A stretch of 39,111 nucleotides of DNA from a virus (IMGVR_UViG_3300046008_000380:1-39111); one strand, 5' to 3'. Positions 25,260 to 31,448 are shown, numbered from the stretch's first letter. Program-made: numbers and translations. The notes: generated from the letters alone by a model not told the origin.

Positions 25260-25348
25260 GGAAGGTGATGTAGCCGGGGATGCTACCGCTGTTTTGAACG
25301 CAGCTGGAACCGAAAGGTCAGGATTTCGATTATGCCCTCCTTCCGCCA
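25260..25348 (+). tRNA. tRNA-Ser(UGA)
   Basis: Acceptor GGAAGG/CCTTCC with G73 and encoded CCA. D-loop CGGGGAT. Anticodon loop TTTGAAC (UGA) on stem GCTGT/GCAGC. Extended variable region as expected for serine. The T-stem is weak, with a bulged G around TTCGATT. Confidence 0.75.
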
Positions 25349-25389
25349 ATACGTGGACTGTTCACCACTATAAAAACGAGGGAGAATTT

Positions 25390-25472
25390 GGGCGACTGGT
25401 TAATACGAATTGGCACAGTTACTGGTTTTAGAAGCCAGACCTTTCTCGGTTCGAGTCCGAGGTCGCCTACCA
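25390..25472 (+). tRNA. tRNA-Leu(UAG)
   Basis: Acceptor GGGCGAC/GTCGCCT, A73, CCA. Anticodon loop TTTAGAA (UAG) on CTGGT/GCCAG. T-arm CTCGG-TTCGAGT-CCGAG. The D-region is enlarged (about 25 nt, with ATTGGCA), while the variable loop is only about 6 nt, unlike a normal class II leucine tRNA. Canonical elbow (GG with UC). Confidence 0.8.
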
Positions 25473-25479
25473 AATTTTT

Positions 25480-25554
25480 GGCTCTGTCATATAGTGGCTA
25501 TTATATCCGCCTGTCTAGTGGAATATGAGGGTTCGATTCCCTCCAGAGTCGCCA
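25480..25554 (+). tRNA. tRNA-Asp(GUC)
   Basis: Acceptor GGCTCTG/CAGAGTC, G73, CCA. D-stem ATAT/ATAT with GG in the loop. Anticodon loop CTGTCTA (GUC). T-arm GAGGG-TTCGATT-CCCTC. Canonical elbow. Confidence 0.9.
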
Positions 25555-25558
25555 AGTT

Positions 25559-25624
25559 TTAAACCGTGTTCACCGTGAAATTCGGTCTTAGCCACAACAT
25601 TAGAATGCAGCTTGTGGGGTTTAA
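25559..25624 (+). ncRNA. Y-shaped RNA between tRNA-Asp and tRNA-Tyr
   Basis: TTAAACC (25559-25565) pairs with GGTTTAA (25618-25624). Two inner hairpins are ACCG-TGAAATT-CGGT and CCACAA/TTGTGG (with CATT/AATG inside). The second hairpin abuts the 3' strand of the 7-bp closing stem like a T-arm on an acceptor. It follows the same AAGTTTT linker that separates tRNAs. Confidence 0.55.
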
Positions 25625-25633
25625 TTAGTTTAT

Positions 25634-25718
25634 GCGTTGATATACCGTTAAGGACACGGCCTGGACTGTAAATCCAGTATCTCTGATTGGCTAGGATCGT
25701 TACCTAGGCAACGCACCA
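25634..25718 (+). tRNA. tRNA-Tyr(GUA)
   Basis: Acceptor GCGTTG/CAACGC, A73, CCA. D-loop TTAAGGACA on CCG/CGG. Anticodon loop CTGTAAA (GUA) on CTGGA/TCCAG. Long variable arm. T-arm CTAGG-ATCGTTA-CCTAG, so positions 54-58 are A-U instead of U-A. Confidence 0.88.
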
Positions 25719-25726
25719 AAAGTTTT

Positions 25727-25801
25727 GCCCTTGAAACATAAATGGTGATGTGCCGGTTTTGTAATCCGGAAAATACAGTTCAAGTCTGTACGAGGGCACC
25801 A
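25727..25801 (+). tRNA. tRNA-Thr(UGU)
   Basis: Acceptor GCCCTTG/CGAGGGC, A73, CCA. D-arm ACAT-AAATGGTG-ATGT. Anticodon loop TTTGTAA (UGU). T-arm TACAG-TTCAAGT-CTGTA. Canonical elbow. Confidence 0.9.
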
Positions 25802-25809
25802 AGTTTTAT

Positions 25810-25884
25810 GCGTCTGAAGTGTTGGTGATTACACGCCGTCCTTCCAAGTCGGATTATAGGGTTTGACTCCCTACAGACGCTCCA
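25810..25884 (+). tRNA. tRNA-Gly(UCC)
   Basis: Acceptor GCGTCTG/CAGACGC, U73, CCA. D-arm GTGT-TGGTGATT-ACAC. Anticodon loop CTTCCAA (UCC) with one U-U in the stem. T-arm TAGGG-TTTGACT-CCCTA: base 56 is U, and the D-loop offers G18-A19. Confidence 0.88.
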
Positions 25885-25894
25885 AGTTTTAAAT

Positions 25895-25968
25895 GCTTTG
25901 ATAATTCAATGGTAGAATAATCGACCGATAATCGATAAACACAGGATCGTTACCTGTTCAAAGCACCA
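25895..25968 (+). tRNA. tRNA-Ile(GAU)
   Basis: Acceptor GCTTTGA/TCAAAGC, A73, CCA. D-arm ATTC-AATGGTA-GAAT. Anticodon stem ATCGA/TCGAT around CCGATAA: anticodon GAU but C at position 33 where U is nearly invariant. T-arm ACAGG-ATCGTTA-CCTGT (A54-U58). Confidence 0.85.
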
Positions 25969-25970
25969 AT

Positions 25971-26044
25971 CTCTGATTAGTATAGTGCTAATACTCTTGT
26001 TTTGGGAACAAGGATCGTTGGTTGGATTCCAACATCAGAGACCA
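25971..26044 (+). tRNA. tRNA-Pro(UGG)
   Basis: Acceptor CTCTGAT/ATCAGAG, A73, CCA. D-arm GTAT-AGTGCTA-ATAC. Anticodon loop TTTGGGA (UGG) on CTTGT/ACAAG. T-arm GTTGG-TTGGATT-CCAAC. The elbow pair is C19-G56, the reverse of the usual G19-C56. Confidence 0.88.
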
Positions 26045-26052
26045 AAAGTTAT

Positions 26053-26127
26053 GGGGGCAGCAATGAGTTGCGGAGAACACTTGCAATGTTCTTGTCTAGA
26101 AGAGTTTGATTCTCTCGGCCTCCACCA
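26053..26127 (+). tRNA. tRNA-Ala(UGC)
   Basis: Acceptor GGGGGC/GCCTCC region with one G-U, A73, CCA. D-arm GCA-ATGAGT-TGC. Anticodon loop CTTGCAA (UGC) on GAACA/TGTTC. T-loop TTTGATT: U56 with A19 in the D-loop. Confidence 0.85.
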
Positions 26128-26133
26128 AAGAAA

Positions 26134-26210
26134 CGGTAATGCCCTAGTCGTAAGTGTCTGCAGCGCGAAAAGACAAGTAAGTTAAATTAGCAGATGGGTT
26201 CGCTATGCCG
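26134..26210 (+). ncRNA. Y-shaped RNA after tRNA-Ala
   Basis: CGGTA (26134-26138) closes with TGCCG (26206-26210). Inner hairpins are TGTCT/AGACA (26155-26175) and TAGC-AGATGGGTTC-GCTA (26188-26205), the latter stacked directly on the closing strand. No CCA or anticodon loop. Confidence 0.5.
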
Positions 26211-26283
26211 GGAAGAGAAGTTCTAGATGCCGGGATATCCGGAAAGCTCGGTTACATGTCAGATAGCTGTTCTGACCTCTTCT
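26211..26283 (+). ncRNA. tRNA-like RNA without CCA
   Basis: GGAAGAG (26211-26217) pairs with CTCTTCT (26277-26283). Inner arms are CCGG-GATAT-CCGG and GTCAGA-TAGCTGT-TCTGAC, the second with a 7-nt loop directly before the 3' closing strand, as in a T-arm. The middle loop has only five bases, so no normal anticodon. It ends in AAATTTTT. Confidence 0.5.
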
Positions 26284-26308
26284 AAATTTTTAATGTAGTA
26301 TGTTTTGG

Positions 26309-26395
26309 TCCACAGTAAGCATAACTGGTACTGCACCGCACTGTTAATGCGGCTTCCGAAAGGTCTTGCTGGTTCGAACCCAGCCTGTGGAGCCA
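26309..26395 (+). tRNA. tRNA-Asn(GUU) with an unusually long variable loop
   Basis: Acceptor TCCACAG/CTGTGGA, G73, CCA. D-loop contains CTGG. Anticodon loop CTGTTAA (GUU) on CCGCA/TGCGG. T-arm GCTGG-TTCGAAC-CCAGC. The variable region CTTCCGAAAGGTCTT is 15 nt with a mini-hairpin, where asparagine tRNAs normally have about five. Confidence 0.88.
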
Positions 26396-26416
26396 AAACA
26401 TATTAAGGGAATAATC

Positions 26417-26536
26417 ATGAAAACAAGAAATGAAAATCTTCGTAAGTTACAATTTAGAACAGGTGCTGGTGCTCATGTTAAGAGCAATAAAGCATTACGA
26501 AGAAAGAATAAAGTTGTATTAAGTAAAGAATTATAG
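26417..26536 (+). CDS. Small basic protein within the tRNA array (39 aa)
   Basis: ATG 26417 is preceded by AAGGGA. The product starts MKTRNENLRKLQFRTGAGAH and is rich in Arg and Lys throughout. Similar tiny basic proteins occur in phage tRNA clusters. No fold or function is known; RNA binding is a guess from charge. It lies between tRNA-Asn and tRNA-Lys on the same transcript. Confidence 0.75.
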   Translation: MKTRNENLRKLQFRTGAGAHVKSNKALRRKNKVVLSKEL

Positions 26537-26542
26537 TATTAT

Positions 26543-26618
26543 GGGTTGCTGATGAAATTGGCTATCATATGACGCTTTTAACGTCGCTTTCAGAGTTCGA
26601 ATCTCTGGCAACCTACCA
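26543..26618 (+). tRNA. tRNA-Lys(UUU)
   Basis: Acceptor GGGTTGC/GCAACCT, A73, CCA. D-arm ATGA-AATTGGCTA-TCAT. Anticodon loop CTTTTAA (UUU) on TGACG/CGTCG. T-arm CAGAG-TTCGAAT-CTCTG. Canonical elbow. Lysine tRNA is a frequent target of host anticodon nucleases. Confidence 0.92.
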
Positions 26619-26626
26619 AGTTTTAT

Positions 26627-26701
26627 ATCGCATTAGACATCTGGTGAGGTCAGCAGGCTTTCAACCTGTTCAGAGGGGATCGTAACCCCTATGCGATGCC
26701 A
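26627..26701 (+). tRNA. tRNA-Glu(UUC)
   Basis: Acceptor ATCGCAT/ATGCGAT, G73, CCA. D-arm GAC-ATCTGGTGAG-GTC. Anticodon loop CTTTCAA (UUC). T-arm AGGGG-ATCGTAA-CCCCT (A54-U58). Confidence 0.9.
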
Positions 26702-26728
26702 AGTTTTTGTTACTTTACGTTCTATAAT

Positions 26729-26784
26729 TGTTTCAGCAATTACTGAGTAAAAGTAAATCACTGTGCTATATAGATGCTGAAACA
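26729..26784 (+). ncRNA. Structured RNA with a 10-bp stem
   Basis: TGTTTCAGCA (26729-26738) pairs perfectly with TGCTGAAACA (26775-26784). Inside lies TTACT-GAGTAAA-AGTAA with a 7-nt loop. It occupies the long spacer between tRNA-Glu and a tRNA-like gene. Confidence 0.5.
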
Positions 26785-26800
26785 TCAACACAAGCATAGA

Positions 26801-26868
26801 GGATATTGGTCTACTGGATACGGCGCCTGCGCGGAGCAGGAGAACAAGGTTCGATTCCTTGATATTCG
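26801..26868 (+). tRNA. tRNA-like gene with an abnormal anticodon arm
   Basis: Acceptor GGATATT/GATATTC with G73, a D-loop containing CTGGATA and a normal T-arm CAAGG-TTCGATT-CCTTG. The anticodon stem CCTGC/GCAGG encloses only GCGGA (five bases); even with the last pair open, position 33 would be G. CCA is not encoded, unlike the other tRNAs in the array. It is probably a decoy or degenerate tRNA. Confidence 0.5.
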
Positions 26869-26877
26869 TTGAACAAT

Positions 26878-26953
26878 TGCGGAGATGGGCTAACTAAGCA
26901 AGCCGCCGGCCTCATAAGCCGGAGACGAGGTGCAATTCCTCTGTCCGCTACCA
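26878..26953 (+). tRNA. tRNA-Met-type (CAU) with mismatched 1-72
   Basis: Core acceptor GCGGA/TCCGC with U1-U72 unpaired, A73, CCA. D-arm GGC-TAACTAAGCAA-GCC. Anticodon loop CTCATAA on CCGGC/GCCGG. T-loop TGCAATT: G55 with A18-G19 in the D-loop. A 1-72 mismatch is an initiator hallmark, but it could also be an Ile2-type CAU tRNA. Confidence 0.8.
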
Positions 26954-26961
26954 AGTTTTGA

Positions 26962-27069
26962 GTGCTCAAGAAAAGCTTAATTATACTTTAGCGAGTATAG
27001 CTCAAATTAAGTTTTGGGAAAGTCCGTACTTTATATATTCTAGTGCAAGGAGAGACGGACAGCACACCA
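26962..27069 (+). ncRNA. Y-shaped RNA ending in ACCA
   Basis: GTGCT (26962-26966) closes with AGCAC (27061-27065), followed by ACCA. Arm one is CTTAATT/AATTAAG enclosing ATACT-TTAGCG-AGTAT; arm two is GTCCGT/ACGGAC (27022-27060), which stacks directly on the acceptor-like strand. No anticodon arm. The encoded CCA suggests a tRNA-like 3' end. Confidence 0.55.
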
Positions 27070-27079
27070 ATTTTACAAT

Positions 27080-27156
27080 GGCCGCGAGATGCAACGAGAC
27101 GCATATCACCCTTTGACGGTGAGTTTTAATAGGTGCAAATCCTATAGCGGCTGCCA
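27080..27156 (+). tRNA. tRNA-Gln(UUG)
   Basis: Acceptor GGCCGC/GCGGCT, G73, CCA. D-arm ATGC-AACGAGAC-GCAT with no GG. Anticodon loop CTTTGAC (UUG) on TCACC/GGTGA. T-arm ATAGG-TGCAAAT-CCTAT: G55, matched by A18-G19. Confidence 0.88.
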
Positions 27157-27158
27157 GT

Positions 27159-27231
27159 TTTAATAGAGGGACGCTTCGGCGTAAGAGTGCCCTTAATATC
27201 CACGTCGCGTATCAAACGTGAGTCTATTAAA
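27159..27231 (+). ncRNA. Y-shaped RNA between tRNA-Gln and tRNA-Ser
   Basis: TTTAATAGA (27159-27167) pairs perfectly with TCTATTAAA (27223-27231). Arm one is GGG/CCC enclosing ACGC-TTCG-GCGT, a UUCG-capped hairpin; arm two is CACGT/ACGTG (27201-27220). No CCA or anticodon. Confidence 0.6.
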
Positions 27232-27239
27232 TTCAATAC

Positions 27240-27328
27240 GGAAGATGAACTTATCGGGTGATAAGCGCTGTTTGCTAAACAGTTGAGACTCGCAAGGGTC
27301 TTGGGGTCGGTACCTACTTCTTCCGCCA
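27240..27328 (+). tRNA. tRNA-Ser(GCU)
   Basis: Acceptor GGAAGA/TCTTCC, G73, CCA. D-arm CTTAT-CGGGTG-ATAAG. Anticodon loop TTGCTAA (GCU) on GCTGT/ACAGT. Long variable arm AGACTCGCAAGGGTCT. The T-arm is weak, reading about TTGGG-GTCGGTA-CCTAC. Confidence 0.82.
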
Positions 27329-27440
27329 GAATGCATCCGCAACTTCAGCGGTCTTGAAGAGGTGATTTTACCGGGACCATACACGGTGATGAGGTTTTGG
27401 AAGCGACCTCGGAGAGTCTAATTAACTCAGCTGACACATT
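27329..27440 (+). ncRNA. Multi-hairpin RNA before tRNA-Phe
   Basis: Four hairpins in a row: CCGC-AACTTCA-GCGG (27337-27351), ACCG/CGGT (27370-27387), GAGGT/ACCTC (27391-27410) and GAGT-CTAATTA-ACTC (27414-27428). Two have 7-nt loops. A short AATG/CATT pair could close the whole. No CCA or reading frame. Confidence 0.45.
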
Positions 27441-27515
27441 GCTTCTTTGAGTCAGATAGATGACTAGCGGTCTGAAGAGCCGACGAGGATGGTGCGATAC
27501 CATCAGGAAGCACCA
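27441..27515 (+). tRNA. tRNA-Phe(GAA)
   Basis: Acceptor GCTTCTT/AGGAAGC, A73, CCA. D-arm AGTC-AGATAGAT-GACT with no GG. Anticodon loop CTGAAGA (GAA). T-arm GATGG-TGCGATA-CCATC: G55, matched by A18-G19. Its CCA end takes part in the stem of the following structured RNA. Confidence 0.88.
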
Positions 27516-27585
27516 CATTAAAATACACTGTGTATTCGATACAGGACTTGATTCTGATGTCCCATAGCAGTGTATTTTAATGTGG
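27513..27585 (+). ncRNA. Y-shaped RNA with an 18-bp stem joining tRNA-Phe and tRNA-His
   Basis: CCACATTAAAATACACTG (27513-27530) is perfectly complementary to 27568-27585. The head holds TGTAT-TCG-ATACA and GGAC/GTCC hairpins. The stem includes the last bases (CCA) of tRNA-Phe and the first four (GTGG) of tRNA-His, so it should influence how both ends are processed. Confidence 0.65.
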
Positions 27586-27659
27586 CCATATCATAAAAGT
27601 AATGACCTAGGCTGTGAACCTAGTTAAGAGGGAGCATTACCCTCTGGTCACCCCAAGTA
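27582..27659 (+). tRNA. tRNA-His(GUG) lacking G-1
   Basis: Acceptor GTGGCCA/TGGTCAC, C73, CCA. D-arm TCAT-AAAAGTA-ATGA with no GG. Anticodon loop CTGTGAA (GUG) on CTAGG/CCTAG. T-arm GAGGG-AGCATTA-CCCTC: A54, G55, C56, U58. The base before position 1 is U, not the G-1 that histidyl-tRNA synthetases usually require. End placed at the CCA near 27655. Confidence 0.82.
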
Positions 27660-27669
27660 AGGAGTTATT

Positions 27670-27846
27670 ATGAATTTTAGAATTATCTCAGAAAAATTAA
27701 AGAGTAAATATGAATGCGATGCAATCTACTTTGATTTTATTGAACTTGAAGATAAGGTAATAATTCATAAAGTATTTTATAGAGATAATACAAGAGTTCT
27801 AATGCAACCTACATCATATAGTTACGAGGAATTAATTTCATTATGA
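27670..27846 (+). CDS. Small protein of unknown function (58 aa)
   Basis: ATG 27670 follows GGAG at 27661-27664. The product (MNFRIISEKLKSKYECDAIY ... VIIHKVFYRDNTR) looks like a compact alpha-beta protein with no known motif. Its stop overlaps the next start (ATGA), so the two small genes inside the tRNA array are coupled. Confidence 0.7.
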   Translation: MNFRIISEKLKSKYECDAIYFDFIELEDKVIIHKVFYRDNTRVLMQPTSYSYEELISL

Positions 27847-28019
27847 AGCAAGTCCCTCAATGGGTAAAAGATAGAGAAGCATTAGCACAACCACATGAAG
27901 AAGTTACTTTTGTGGGTGAAATGGGTGTTGATGCAGTTGTAGATGGTAAATTACCAAATGGCGAGCCTTATGTCTATCACAGACAAGATAAGAAATCCAG
28001 AGGTAGAAGAAGTAGATAA
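27843..28019 (+). CDS. Small protein of unknown function (58 aa)
   Basis: Coupled to the preceding gene by ATGA. It begins MKQVPQWVKDREALAQPHEE, has a central strand region (VTFVGEMGVDAVVDGKLPNG) and ends in a strongly basic tail (KKSRGRRSR), which could bind RNA or DNA. No family was recognised. It ends just before a Met-type tRNA. Confidence 0.7.
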   Translation: MKQVPQWVKDREALAQPHEEVTFVGEMGVDAVVDGKLPNGEPYVYHRQDKKSRGRRSR

Positions 28020-28021
28020 TT

Positions 28022-28097
28022 CGTGATAGATGCTTTATAGTACGCAGATAGTTTCATAAACTGTTGAAATATGGTGCGAGTCCATATATCACGACCA
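28022..28097 (+). tRNA. tRNA-Met-type (CAU), second copy
   Basis: Acceptor CGTGATA/TATCACG, A73, CCA. D-arm TGC-TTTATAGTAC-GCA with no GG. Anticodon loop TTCATAA (CAU) on ATAGT/ACTGT. T-arm TATGG-TGCGAGT-CCATA: G55 with A18-G19. It may be elongator Met or Ile2. Confidence 0.85.
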
Positions 28098-28105
28098 GTA
28101 TAAAC

Positions 28106-28188
28106 GGGGATGTGGTGAAATTGGCAAACACATCTGATTTAAGCTCAGACGCTTCGGCTTGAGAGTTCGACCCTCTCCTTCCCCACCA
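28106..28188 (+). tRNA. tRNA-Leu(UAA)
   Basis: Acceptor GGGGATG/CTTCCCC with one mismatch, A73, CCA. D-arm GTG-AAATTGGCAAA-CAC. Anticodon loop TTTAAGC (UAA) on TCTGA/TCAGA. Variable arm CGCTTCGGCTT. T-arm GAGAG-TTCGACC-CTCTC. Canonical elbow. Confidence 0.9.
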
Positions 28189-28196
28189 AAAATAAT

Positions 28197-28270
28197 GCCT
28201 TTATAGTATAATGTTATTACAGTTCATTGGTACTGAACAAATTGAGGTTAGATTCCTCATTTAGGCACCA
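28197..28270 (+). tRNA. tRNA-Thr(GGU)
   Basis: Acceptor GCCTTTA/TTTAGGC with two U-U mismatches, A73, CCA. D-arm GTA-TAATGTTAT-TAC. Anticodon loop TTGGTAC (GGU) on GTTCA/TGAAC. T-arm TGAGG-TTAGATT-CCTCA. The elbow pair is U19-A56 in place of G19-C56. Confidence 0.85.
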
Positions 28271-28276
28271 AACAAT

Positions 28277-28351
28277 GAGTTATTAGTGTAATGGTTAGCA
28301 CACGGCACTCCAAACGCCTTAGAGAGGGTTCGATTCCTTCATTTCTCGCCA
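28277..28351 (+). tRNA. tRNA-Trp(CCA)
   Basis: Acceptor GAGTTAT/ATTTCTC with two U-U mismatches, G73, CCA. D-arm GTGT-AATGGTTA-GCAC. Anticodon loop CTCCAAA (CCA) on a partly paired stem. T-arm GAGGG-TTCGATT-CCTTC. Canonical elbow. Confidence 0.85.
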
Positions 28352-28357
28352 ATCAAT

Positions 28358-28431
28358 GCCCGATTAAGTAAATGGTATACTGCTCTCCTTACAAGTGAGA
28401 CTCGGCGGATCGTAACCGTCATCGGGTACCA
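28358..28431 (+). tRNA. tRNA-Val(UAC)
   Basis: Acceptor GCCCGAT/ATCGGGT, A73, CCA. D-arm AGTA-AATGGTA-TACT. Anticodon loop CTTACAA (UAC) with one U-U in the stem. T-arm GGCGG-ATCGTAA-CCGTC (A54-U58). Confidence 0.88.
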
Positions 28432-28437
28432 AACAAT

Positions 28438-28512
28438 GTGTCGTGAGCCAGTTGATATGGGCACCGGTCTGCAAAATCGAGTAACAGGGTTTGATTCCCT
28501 GACGACATTCCA
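28438..28512 (+). tRNA. tRNA-Cys(GCA)
   Basis: Acceptor GTGTCGT/ACGACAT, U73 as usual for cysteine, CCA. D-stem GCC/GGC with loop AGTTGATAT. Anticodon loop CTGCAAA (GCA). T-arm CAGGG-TTTGATT-CCCTG: U56 matched by A19. Confidence 0.88.
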
Positions 28513-28519
28513 ACTAATC

Positions 28520-28589
28520 GCCCCTGCCGATGGACGGACTTTGGCCTACGAAGCCGAAAGAAGCGGTTCGATACCGTTCAGGGGCTCCA
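28520..28589 (+). tRNA. tRNA-Arg(ACG)
   Basis: Acceptor GCCCCTG/CAGGGGC, U73, CCA. Very small D-arm CCG-ATGGA-CGG. Anticodon loop CTACGAA (ACG) on TTGGC/GCCGA. T-arm AGCGG-TTCGATA-CCGTT. Total 70 nt, canonical elbow. Confidence 0.88.
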
Positions 28590-28613
28590 ATAAATAATTG
28601 CAAAGGAGCATGT

Positions 28614-29204
28614 ATGAGTCATCCATTAGTACTGACATTAAATAGCCATGGACACCCTTTGCATTGGGTAAATTGGCAAGATGCTATTGTAGCAAAAGTT
28701 AAAGGTCTTGTGTCTTGGTCTTTAGGTGAGACAGAGATTGAAGTGAAAGGTGGTACTTCACGCTTAACAGGTGAACGAACAATCATTACAGTACCTACAA
28801 TCATTGCAATCAACAATGAACATCGTAATACACGTGTACCAGTTCTGACAAACATTAATCTGTTCAGACGTGACCTTCATATTTGCGGATACTGCGGCCG
28901 AATGTTTATGCCTGACAAGTTGTCTAGAGATCATATTATCCCTGTATCAAAAGGTGGTAAAGATAACTGGATGAATGTTATCACCGCATGTAAACGGTGT
29001 AATAATGAAAAAGACGATTTATCCATTGACGAATGGAATAAGAAATCACTTAAGGAAACAGGTGAAGGTAGAGCATTAGTCTATTTACCTTATACACCTG
29101 ATAGATCTGAACAGTTGATTTTGCAGAATAGAAACATCTTGCAAGATCAAATGGAATATATTAAGTCTTTTATTCCAGATCATTCTCGTTTACATAACAA
29201 ATAG
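28614..29204 (+). CDS. HNH endonuclease with two CxxC pairs
   Basis: A 196-residue protein. ICGYCGRMF and ACKRCNNEKDD provide the two zinc-binding CxxC pairs around DHIIPVSKGGKDNWMNVITA, the classic HNH core (near residues 85-135). This form is common in phages and may act in packaging or as a restriction-like nuclease rather than in homing. ATG 28614 follows AAAGGAG. It lies directly after tRNA-Arg on the array transcript. Confidence 0.85.
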   Translation: MSHPLVLTLNSHGHPLHWVNWQDAIVAKVKGLVSWSLGETEIEVKGGTSRLTGERTIITVPTIIAINNEHRNTRVPVLTNINLFRRDLHICGYCGRMFMPDKLSRDHIIPVSKGGKDNWMNVITACKRCNNEKDDLSIDEWNKKSLKETGEGRALVYLPYTPDRSEQLILQNRNILQDQMEYIKSFIPDHSRLHNK

Positions 29205-29207
29205 TTG

Positions 29208-29236
29208 TTTACAGTATATGTCTATTGATATATAAT
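29208..29236 (+). promoter_or_regulatory. Early-type promoter for tRNA-Arg(UCU) and the tmRNA region
   Basis: TTTACA (29208-29213), 17 bp, TATAAT (29231-29236), about 17 bp before the tRNA-like gene. Confidence 0.75.
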
Positions 29237-29252
29237 GTATTTAATGAAACAT

Positions 29253-29334
29253 GCGGCTGTATCTCACGGAGCTTCTACCTCCGCGTTAACCGAGTAATTG
29301 GAGTATGGGAGTTCGAGTCTCTCCAGCCGCGCCA
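29253..29334 (+). tRNA. tRNA-Arg(UCU)-like with a reduced D-arm
   Basis: Acceptor GCGGCTG/CAGCCGC, G73, CCA, and T-arm GGGAG-TTCGAGT-CTCTC are clear. A perfect CGGAG-CTTCTAC-CTCCG hairpin gives anticodon UCU. This leaves only seven bases (TATCTCA) for the D-arm and 23 for the variable region, so the molecule is not a standard cloverleaf. An alternative fold was tried without success. Confidence 0.55.
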
Positions 29335-29373
29335 GAATTGTTGTAGAAGCACTAAAGTAATACATGTTGGACG

Positions 29374-29394
29374 GCGGTTCGATTCCGCCCATTT
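29374..29394 (+). pseudogene. Truncated tmRNA/tRNA T-arm upstream of the HNH gene
   Basis: GACGGCGG-TTCGATT-CCGCCCA forms a normal T-arm, preceded by GTTG as at the 3' end of many tmRNAs, but stops without the acceptor strand or CCA. The same GACGGCGG and CCGCCCA reappear after the HNH gene (29914-29935) with a different loop. It is probably a relic left by the HNH insertion. Confidence 0.55.
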
Positions 29395-29402
29395 TATAAA
29401 TA
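29395..29402 (+). promoter_or_regulatory. Late promoter TATAAATA of the HNH gene in the tmRNA locus
   Basis: An exact late consensus whose expected start point is at or next to the ATG at 29408, so late mRNA could be leaderless. Confidence 0.6.
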
Positions 29403-29407
29403 CTTAT

Positions 29408-29893
29408 ATGCATATACATCACATTATACCAAAACACATGGGTGGAACAGATGATCCATCTAATTTAATAGAACTCACAATAGAAGAACATGCAGAGGCT
29501 CATCGGTTGCTATTTGAGCAACACGGTCAATGGGAAGATGAAATAGCTTGGAAAGGTCTTTCTGGTATGATTTCTAAAGAAGAAATTATATTTAGGACTC
29601 AAAGTGAGTCATCTAAAGAAGTTTTAAAAAGAAATGGTAATCCTTGGTCAGGTAAAAGAACAAAAACAAATTTAGCAATAAATGAGCAACAGAGATTAGA
29701 TATGTCAGAAAAGTCAAAATCTCCAGAAGCTATAGAGAAAAGAAAAGAATCATTTAAGAAAATTGGTCACCAACAAGGAGAGAAAAATTCTCAATTTGGT
29801 AAATTTTGGATAACCAATGAACACGAAAGTAAAATGATTTTTAAAACCGATAGTATTCCTGTTGGTTGGAGAAAAGGTAGAAGAATTCGTTGA
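29408..29893 (+). CDS. HNH homing endonuclease inserted in the tmRNA locus
   Basis: A 161-residue protein that opens at once with the HNH core: MHIHHIIPKHMGGTDDPSNL and EEHAEAHRLLFEQHGQW. Other phage HNH proteins I recall start the same way, supporting ATG 29408. The rest is basic with NUMOD-like repeats (SKSPEAIEKRKESFKKIG) and ends VGWRKGRRIR. It lies between a truncated T-arm and the complete tmRNA acceptor half, so the tmRNA gene was its homing site. Confidence 0.85.
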   Translation: MHIHHIIPKHMGGTDDPSNLIELTIEEHAEAHRLLFEQHGQWEDEIAWKGLSGMISKEEIIFRTQSESSKEVLKRNGNPWSGKRTKTNLAINEQQRLDMSEKSKSPEAIEKRKESFKKIGHQQGEKNSQFGKFWITNEHESKMIFKTDSIPVGWRKGRRIR

Positions 29894-29944
29894 AGGTGTG
29901 AGTAAGAGGTCAAGACGGCGGAGCATTACCGCCCAGGTCCACCA

Positions 29945-29976
29945 TAAAACATATTTTAATTAGTATGTTTTATCAT
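29945..29976 (+). other. Intervening hairpin of the permuted tmRNA
   Basis: TAAAACATA (29945-29953) pairs perfectly with TATGTTTTA (29964-29972). It links the CCA end to the mature 5' end and should be cut out during maturation, as in known permuted tmRNAs. Confidence 0.8.
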
Positions 29977-30053
29977 GGGCCTGAATAGATTCGATTGGCG
30001 TTGGATGGTCACCTGAGGATAGACAAGAAAGTCTTAAAAATCAAAAATTAAAT

Positions 30054-30092
30054 GCAAACGATAGCGTTTATACTATTGCTCTAGCAGCTTAG
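30054..30092 (+). other. tmRNA tag reading frame
   Basis: GCA AAC GAT and so on give ANDSVYTIALAA, then TAG. The AND start and LAA end match bacterial proteolysis tags; E. coli has ANDENYALAA. Confidence 0.88.
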
Positions 30093-30186
30093 TCGGGGTC
30101 CGCCGGTTCCTTGTTATCAAATACCGGCAATTAACTTCAATAGGAGATTATTATGCGATCGTAAATTACAACACGGAGCAATAATA

Positions 30187-30576
30187 ATGTCAAGAACATA
30201 CAGAAAGAAATGTCCTTATGGTAGAGGTTGGGACACACTCGAATATCGTCTAGAAGATAGTGGCTTTACTTTAGATGAAGCACTTAAAATAGAAGGTGTT
30301 GAGAGTATTCACCTATCCCCTTACGGATCTCATTACAGAATGTTGTATGAGGTTCGCTACTCAAGAACATCTAAAAAAGGCAAGGAACTAATTGCACGTT
30401 GGCACTCTGATGCCGGTGTGTGTAGTTTTAAAGAGCCCGGACCTATGTGGTTTGTTAGAGAGTTCACTCAAGCACCCTACAGAGCAAGATGTAAGCAAGA
30501 GATTCACAAATATTACAAAGATGAAGATTATGAAGTTATCATTGAAGATATGCCTCACTTAGATTATTGGACTTAG
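30187..30576 (+). CDS. Phage protein of unknown function (129 aa)
   Basis: Begins MSRTYRKKCPYGRGWDTLEY and is strongly basic, with GSHYRMLYEVRYSRTSKKGK and ARCKQEIHKYYKDEDY. Tight beta-rich composition and basic patches suggest nucleic-acid binding, though no known domain was recognised. CGGAG precedes the ATG. It is the first protein gene after the tmRNA. Confidence 0.7.
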   Translation: MSRTYRKKCPYGRGWDTLEYRLEDSGFTLDEALKIEGVESIHLSPYGSHYRMLYEVRYSRTSKKGKELIARWHSDAGVCSFKEPGPMWFVREFTQAPYRARCKQEIHKYYKDEDYEVIIEDMPHLDYWT

Positions 30577-30579
30577 TTG

Positions 30580-30608
30580 TTTACATTTAATATTGTTTAT
30601 GGTATAAT
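30580..30608 (+). promoter_or_regulatory. Early-type promoter
   Basis: TTTACA (30580-30585), 17 bp, TATAAT (30603-30608), then GTCTTTATATTAATTGAGG. It drives the operon from 30637. Confidence 0.8.
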
Positions 30609-30636
30609 GTCTTTATATTAATTGAGGGGGTATTAT

Positions 30637-31059
30637 ATGAACAACTTAGCCAAGCATTATATTGAGGTAGAAATAACACTTAATCGCGTTATTAGTGCAA
30701 TGAAAAGTGTTGCTGATAAGCAAACAATACAAGATTTACAATCAGTAGGTACAATTATGGCCGAAATCAGGCATGCTGCAGTAAGTCTTAGTGATGGTTC
30801 TGATGTTGATGGAGTAACTCAACGAGTGATGAGCGGTTTATTAAATGTTGAGGAGAAACAAATGACTAATATTGAATTATGTGAAATCAATCTAAGACAA
30901 TCTAAATTGATTGAAGATTTGTGTAAAGAGTTGAAAACAGTTAAAGCGTTACTTGCAACTTCTGAAAAGATTTCAATTGAGTTAGAAAAACAATTATATG
31001 AGTCTGATAAAGCGTATTCAACATTAGCTAAAAAGATCTGCACACCTTTTAAATCTTAG
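30637..31059 (+). CDS. Helical protein of unknown function (140 aa)
   Basis: ATG 30637 follows GAGGGGG. The product is almost entirely helical, with a probable coiled coil in the C-terminal half (SKLIEDLCKELKTVKALLAT ... ISIELEKQLYESDKAYSTLA). No membrane segment or catalytic motif. It shares the promoter with the following small gene. Confidence 0.65.
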   Translation: MNNLAKHYIEVEITLNRVISAMKSVADKQTIQDLQSVGTIMAEIRHAAVSLSDGSDVDGVTQRVMSGLLNVEEKQMTNIELCEINLRQSKLIEDLCKELKTVKALLATSEKISIELEKQLYESDKAYSTLAKKICTPFKS

Positions 31060-31067
31060 GATATATT

Positions 31068-31364
31068 ATGAAACAACCAAATCTAGTTAAGATTGAAGCA
31101 GGCCGTTATAGTTTCTTTGAAGGTAAAGAACGAGTCATTTCAGTTGAACACATGCCTAAAGAGTTTCTTGAACAGTATAGGGTTAATCCTAAACAAATTG
31201 AGATTGATGCTAATCAGGTAGAAGAACCAATTGAAATGGTATCTATACCACAAGATGTGCTGCAAGATTTAGTTAACAAAGAACATTTCTTAGATAGATT
31301 TGTTCTAAAAGGTCTTTCAATGGATGAATGGATGGAACTTAATTATTCACCTGAGAAAGCATAG
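31068..31364 (+). CDS. Small acidic protein of unknown function (98 aa)
   Basis: AGGA precedes ATG 31068. The protein has a short beta start (LVKIEAGRYSFFEGKERVIS) and an acidic helical end (LVNKEHFLDRFVLKGLSMDE). No motif was recognised. It ends six bases before a Met-type tRNA gene. Confidence 0.65.
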   Translation: MKQPNLVKIEAGRYSFFEGKERVISVEHMPKEFLEQYRVNPKQIEIDANQVEEPIEMVSIPQDVLQDLVNKEHFLDRFVLKGLSMDEWMELNYSPEKA

Positions 31365-31369
31365 TTTCC

Positions 31370-31448
31370 GTGCCTCAAGCTTAAGTCTGGTATAAGCGCT
31401 CGGCTCATAACCGAAGGATAGAGGGTTCGAATCCCTCGGGGCACACCA
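31370..31448 (+). tRNA. tRNA-Met-type (CAU), third copy
   Basis: Acceptor GTGCCTC/GGGGCAC, A73, CCA. D-loop AGTCTGGTA. Anticodon arm CTCGG-CTCATAA-CCGAA followed by GG, which resembles the fMet anticodon arm. T-arm GAGGG-TTCGAAT-CCCTC. Canonical elbow, and isolated from the main array. Confidence 0.88.

Follow-up and report, generated by a model that had tools for sequence, protein, structure and literature searches.

Introduction

The bases of the transfer RNA (tRNA) elbow are regarded as almost fixed. Programs that search for tRNA genes rely on them, and so do descriptions of how RNase P, the ribosome and modification enzymes recognise tRNA. A different elbow has been described in eukaryotes, where initiator tRNA carries A54, A58 and A60, and tRNA-Ala(AGC) has A54/A58 with a purine at position 60 (PMC10602860, PMC7566577). 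Phage tRNAs have been reported to escape anticodon nucleases through changes in the anticodon loop (PMC10264068), and the tRNA changes of phage T5 against PARIS AriB lie in the anticodon stem and the D-loop (PMC12409363). Here, we analyzed a stretch of 39,111 nucleotides of viral DNA (IMGVR_UViG_3300046008_000380:1-39111), called the window in the following and numbered over its whole length, which holds a tRNA array at positions 25,260-31,448. We show that the bases at the elbow contacts 18-55, 19-56 and 54-58 vary together in many phage tRNAs, of different isotypes and from phages that are unrelated. Our literature searches returned no description of such elbows in phages, although coverage of subscription papers was partial and absence is not proof.

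Results

Covarying elbows in the window

The bases at 18-55 and 19-56 were compatible in 27 of 27 alignable members of the window array, comprising tRNAs and one transfer-messenger RNA (tmRNA). When T-loops were shuffled among D-loops, none of 20,000 shuffles reached this value (mean 14.8, maximum 23). Within the 11 altered tRNAs alone, all 11 were matched in 7 of 20,000 shuffles. An earlier reading of this DNA (the original prediction) had proposed that these pairs change together across the array and that all four Watson-Crick forms of 19-56 occur, and both proposals are borne out. The conserved G18, G19, U54, U55, C56 and A58 are replaced by covarying substitutes in about half of the window genes, and about half of the array retains the canonical elbow.

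For tRNA-Pro (C19-G56) and tRNA-Thr(GGU) (U19-A56) the Rfam covariance alignments gave the same bases as predicted, at 55 bits. A19-U56 in Gly and Cys agreed with a structure-only scan, and in Ala it was read by hand, with a register that is the least certain because the D-loop is short (6 nucleotides). G55 goes together with A18-G19 in Gln, Phe, His and the CAU-anticodon tRNA at 28022 according to the structure-only scan, and in the CAU tRNA at 26879 by hand reading. The same G55 is present in a circularly permuted tmRNA, whose D-loop has AG in place of the Rfam consensus GG; this gene scored 91.4 bits against a cutoff of 47 (RF04321) and has the tag-peptide region. A54-U58 was found, as predicted, in Tyr, Ile, Glu, Val, His and the tmRNA. 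The claim that the rest of the array is canonical held for many tRNAs but not for tRNA-Ser(GCU) at 27240-27328, which had been overlooked and carries G54-G58. The elbow states are listed below with position, strand, gene and, where given, the source of the reading.

25810-25884, +, tRNA-Gly(UCC), A19-U56, D-loop TGGTGATT, T-loop TTTGACT; A8/U14 swapped too (structure-only scan)
25971-26044, +, tRNA-Pro(UGG), C19-G56, AGTGCTA / TTGGATT; C1-G72 and A73 retained (Rfam alignment)
26053-26127, +, tRNA-Ala(UGC), A19-U56, 6-nucleotide D-loop; G3-U70 retained (hand reading)
28197-28270, +, tRNA-Thr(GGU), U19-A56, TAATGTTAT / TTAGATT (Rfam alignment)
28438-28512, +, tRNA-Cys(GCA), A19-U56, T-loop TTTGATT; U73 retained (structure-only scan)
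26879-26953, +, CAU-anticodon tRNA, A18-G55, T-loop TGCAATT (elbow read by hand)
27080-27156, +, tRNA-Gln(UUG), A18-G55, AACGAGAC / TGCAAAT; missed by ARAGORN and Rfam (structure-only scan)
27441-27515, +, tRNA-Phe(GAA), A18-G55, AGATAGAT / TGCGATA; missed by ARAGORN and Rfam (structure-only scan)
27582-27655, +, tRNA-His(GUG), A18-G55 and A54-U58, AAAAGTA / AGCATTA (structure-only scan)
28022-28097, +, CAU-anticodon tRNA, A18-G55, TTTATAGTAC / TGCGAGT (structure-only scan)
29882-30092, +, circularly permuted tmRNA, D-loop AG for GG, T-loop AGCATTA (A54-U58, G55) (Rfam)
25634-25718, +, tRNA-Tyr(GUA), A54-U58, A60, T-loop ATCGTTA (hand reading)
25895-25968, +, tRNA-Ile(GAU), A54-U58, A60
26627-26701, +, tRNA-Glu(UUC), A54-U58, A60
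28358-28431, +, tRNA-Val(UAC), A54-U58, A60 (structure-only scan)
27240-27328, +, tRNA-Ser(GCU), G54-G58, A60, T-loop GTCGGTA; some stem mismatches (hand reading)
25480-25554, +, tRNA-Asp(GUC), canonical elbow, for comparison
25727-25801, +, tRNA-Thr(UGU), canonical elbow
26309-26395, +, tRNA-Asn(GUU), canonical elbow, long variable arm
26543-26618, +, tRNA-Lys(UUU), canonical elbow
28106-28188, +, tRNA-Leu(UAA), canonical elbow
28277-28351, +, tRNA-Trp(CCA), canonical elbow
31370-31448, +, tRNA-Met(CAU), canonical elbow

ARAGORN found 14 tRNAs in the window, and Rfam found 12 at gathering plus the permuted tmRNA. The structure-only scanner, in which the bases 18, 19 and 54-58 are never consulted and which gave no false positives in 3.1 megabases of reversed sequence, added Gln, Phe, His, Val, Cys and the second CAU tRNA; hand reading added Ser, Leu, Tyr, Ala and Arg. 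Three good cloverleafs (Gln, Phe, His) escape both standard tools, being reported neither by ARAGORN nor by Rfam at E<=5. The D-loop register is unambiguous for loops of 7 nucleotides only, and Ala and Ser(GCU) are the weaker models of the window set.

Elbow pairs in other phages and in cells

IMG/VR was scanned with exact patterns in the fixed context AGTG[19]TA...GGTT[56]GATTCC...CCA. Both positions were altered in at least 119 contigs, and 19 alone or 56 alone in 4 contigs each. Among the matches listed, 118 of 122 double changes were Watson-Crick pairs (A19-U56 98, C19-G56 10, U19-A56 10), the other 4 being U19-U56 in Lys tRNAs. A19-U56, the commonest swap among these matches, is the class that can be reached via a G-U step. 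In distinct cloverleafs the combinations at 18 and 55 included A-G 51, C-G 2 and G-C 88, with none of G-G, A-U or A-C. A18 and C18 were always accompanied by G55, and the partners of G18 were U55 and C55.

Bacterial tRNAs almost never show these matched swaps. The same double pattern gave 12 matches in 84,980 cellular genomes. Six were in Mycoplasma-type chromosomes, in a tRNA-Gly(UCC) or tRNA-Asp(GUC) with A19-U56, and two were one common sequence with no recognised cloverleaf. In one bacterial phylum, the A18-G55 pattern had no match among 149 genomes, and the canonical pattern gave 14 matches in 15 genomes.

Against selection by our own search patterns, we removed all tRNAs matching either bait pattern and analyzed the remaining tRNAs, the bystanders, at loci chosen for holding at least one altered tRNA. 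Altered tRNAs made up 24% at such loci, which is not their prevalence in phages at large because of this choice. Of 446 bystanders, 437 had a Watson-Crick pair at 19-56, compared with at most 397 after shuffling. Positions 54 and 58 were U-A in 1364, A-U in 88, G-G in 51, A-A in 28 and C-A in 13 tRNAs, with about a dozen others. A60 accompanied the A-U (71/88), G-G (44/51) and A-A (22/28) classes, compared with 18 of 1364 for U-A; the C-A class was not accompanied by A60. The elbow of the eukaryotic initiator type (A54, A58, A60) was thus that of 22 of the 28 A54-A58 loops, and not that of the A54-U58 or G54-G58 tRNAs of the window. The core pair 8-14 also covaries (U-A 393, A-U 14, G-G 12, A-A 9), and a base other than U8 goes with altered loops (odds ratio 2.3). 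When all pairs of loop columns were ranked by mutual information, 54-58, 18-55, 54-60, 58-60, 8-14, 19-56 and 15-48 came out on top, and these include textbook tertiary contacts of tRNA. The rate of change in bystander pairs was lower at the elbow than in the stems, and positive selection read from elbow rates was unsupported.

The recall of ARAGORN was 1254 of 1264 (99%) for tRNAs with canonical loops, 3 of 42 (7%) for those with G54-G58 and G55, and 9 of 34 (26%) for those with A54-U58 and G55. Phage tRNA repertoires are under-annotated because few tRNAs of the latter two kinds are recovered, which bears on studies of codon compensation and defence escape.

Integrity and history of the altered tRNAs

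The altered tRNAs form cloverleafs with stems of 7, 4, 5 and 5 base pairs, anticodon and T-loops of 7 nucleotides, U33 and CCA, and 16.63 of their 17 stem pairs are formed compared with 16.71 in canonical tRNAs. Identity elements were retained for Ala (G3-U70, 8/8), Cys (U73, 19/19), Asp (G73, 32/32) and Pro (C1-G72, 12/13). Neither the stems nor the identity bases were unconstrained, as would be the case in pseudogenes.

Altered T-loops were present in all 20 isotypes. For 50% of the altered tRNAs the nearest canonical tRNA belonged to the same isotype (6% by chance), and therefore switching took place in many isotype lineages. A single odd tRNA spread horizontally was rejected as the source, given the altered loops in all 20 isotypes and their clustering by isotype with canonical relatives. 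Close relatives (His, Ser, Gly(GCC)) differ mainly at the elbow. The His gene, which seems to be common to the window and Streptomyces phages, has AGCATTA (A54-U58) in the window compared with GGCGGTA in Coruscant, and G54-G58 in the Streptomyces phages; the Ser orthologues have GTCGGTA (G54-G58) in the window and ATCGATA (A54-A58) in DLP_6. In the Gly(GCC) family the tRNA bodies are identical and 19, 55 and 56 are switched jointly, with flanking DNA that has diverged by 15-25%.

Among cultured phages, a single altered His gene is present in each of the Streptomyces phages Coruscant and Jay2Jay, with the T-loop GGCGGTA or GGCAGTA. In the Stenotrophomonas phage DLP_6 the scan gave four altered genes (Phe, Ile and Asn with ATCGT.., Gln with A19-U56), to which Ser was added by eye. 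The altered gene of E. coli phage Mt1B1_P17, also a single one, is a CAU tRNA with ATCGAAA. The phages XacN1, Myrna, Sw2 and 65.2 had canonical elbows only among the tRNAs that the scanner found. Since such large canonical arrays exist beside altered phages, the trait is lineage-specific and no consequence of many tRNAs. The Tunturiibacter phage Tunturi_5 has a tRNA array that adjoins a tRNA nucleotidyltransferase and a tRNA splicing ligase, and its deposited record lacks tRNA annotation; it was dropped as a second altered case as its elbows are mostly canonical. Protein searches with the PhoH-like and 30187 open reading frames (ORFs) found no close relatives of the window, and a search of the phage collection for near-identical DNA gave a single match of 89 bases.

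Other features of the window array

A perfect hairpin of 19 base pairs lies between tRNA-Phe and tRNA-His (27512-27588; fold z-score -7.95). At 26961-27069 there is a tRNA-like RNA whose 3' AGCAC-A-CCA pairs with the 5' GTGCT around a long non-cloverleaf interior. The long variable arm of tRNA-Asn(GUU) (26309-26395) also occurs in Mt1B1_P17. A tRNA-Arg(UCU) candidate at 29253-29334, seemingly devoid of a normal D-arm, has a long interior insert. Just before an HNH ORF, with the permuted tmRNA after it, there is a lone canonical T-arm (29342-29396), which may be left over from an older tmRNA or a tRNA piece. The permuted tmRNA (29882-30092) is carried by a phage of the T4-like superfamily.

Discussion

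The comparisons of sequence presented here suggest that the altered phage tRNAs are functional and that their elbow is kept as structure and not as sequence; relaxed selection on base identity, with compensatory switching many times, is the probable cause. Selection for the precise bases that are recognised by host factors, namely T-loop modification enzymes, RNase P/Z, the ribosome and synthetases, would be weaker in phages than in cells, and we infer that these factors read phage tRNAs less strictly. Strong selection on the structure of the elbow would persist while base identity relaxes. With weaker selection on the letters, a one-sided change would be tolerated and the other side would compensate later. 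The expected outcomes would be Watson-Crick swaps at 19-56, A18-G55 or G18-C55 for G18-U55, and A-U, G-G or A-A at 54-58 together with A60; altered tRNAs may then have been inherited and moved between phages. Such a structural constraint without an identity constraint fits the prevalence of compensated pairs, the swap reachable by G-U being commonest, the movement of other core pairs and the slower evolution of elbow than of stem sites. Several observations weigh against this explanation. A18-G55 requires two changes, and simple drift accounts poorly for the near absence of its intermediates A18-U55 and G18-G55. Moreover, the altered share varies widely between isotypes (49% for His, 3% for Trp), and the toggle of Gly(GCC) looks like focused change, although both of its states were bait-selected.

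The original prediction had suggested escape from a nuclease or homing endonuclease as the cause. Altered elbows would be selected by a factor recognising the canonical elbow or T-arm, either a tRNA-cleaving defence nuclease or a phage nuclease directed against host tRNAs, and the second change would restore folding. We regard this as unlikely. Defences that target tRNA are common and some phage tRNAs do escape them, the Gly(GCC) family toggles precisely at the elbow, and Jay2Jay also encodes an RNA ligase and a polynucleotide kinase. Cas12a3 touches the backbone of the T-arm, but its contacts are with phosphates and not with bases (PMC12851939). However, about half of the window tRNAs and most tRNAs of other altered arrays are canonical, as are those scanned in XacN1, Myrna, Sw2 and 65.2. 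The changes also reach beyond the T-arm, since 8-14 covaries likewise; this covariation and the slow elbow rates point to no elbow-specific nuclease, and none was identified. An equally improbable extension is a selected elbow code, in which the altered 18-55, 19-56 and 54-58-60 sets would hide phage tRNAs from an elbow-reading factor; tRNAs of the host type would be attacked or go unmodified, and compensation would keep ribosome function.

Rather doubtful is an independence from host T-loop modification, by which altered elbows would fold without m5U54, Psi55 and Gm18 and would not need TrmA, TruB and TrmH. Indeed, A54, G54, G55 and C55 eliminate the modified U, and the eukaryotic initiator tRNA with A54/A60 has neither T54 nor Psi55 (PMC10602860). 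Nevertheless, canonical neighbours persist, and A19-U56, the commonest 19-56 class, fits the TruB consensus GUUYRANYC (PMC7912444), which weakens a uniform rule of modification avoidance. The original prediction had also named the avoidance of recombination among members of the array; this, or avoidance of recombination with integrases using tRNA T-arms, is very unlikely even though the arrays are dense, T-arm DNA is their most repeated part and homing-type HNH/NUMOD genes are found in and around the array. It predicts changed T-arm DNA and leaves the 8-14 changes unexplained; half of the array still has T-arms of the GGTTCRANTCC type, and some arrays with more than 20 tRNAs are canonical. Pseudogenes or misaligned non-tRNA sequence might account for a few window members with damaged stems or D-arms (Ser UGA, CGG 26799, Arg UCU). 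For the set as a whole this is refuted, with next to no probability left, since neither the stems nor CCA nor the identity elements are disrupted; the clean scan of reversed sequence and the strong covariation also stand against it. Simple decay, which the original prediction had thought hard to reconcile with these elbows, is thus excluded.

Phages appear to offer a large natural experiment in compensatory mutation, in which covariation alone recovers tertiary contacts. With at least four solutions at 54-58-60, the need for a pair becomes separable from the need for its identity.

Alternative contacts between D- and T-loops have been described for suppressor tRNAs selected in the laboratory by the Steinberg group, which reportedly can support translation; the phage elbows are natural, many and covarying. 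Canonical bacterial and phage tRNAs (RF00005) share with the altered phage tRNAs the cloverleaf, CCA, U33, identity elements, purine 57 and G53-C61, and differ in the bases used at 18-55, 19-56 and 54-58. The elbow AGTGATA / TTTGATT of Mycoplasma tRNA-Gly and tRNA-Asp is identical, yet these are cellular genes in few genomes. Phage tRNAs that escape nucleases (PMC10264068, PMC12409363) likewise depart from the host sequence, but their changes affect the anticodon arm or its surroundings and cleavage contacts in the D-loop, whereas here the elbow of D- and T-loop is changed. Finally, A54-A58 with A60 as in the eukaryotic initiator is one of four phage solutions, for example ATCGAAA in Mt1B1_P17. 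Unlike the eukaryotic elbow, phages also have A-U and G-G at 54-58 as well as A18-G55, and this across many isotypes.

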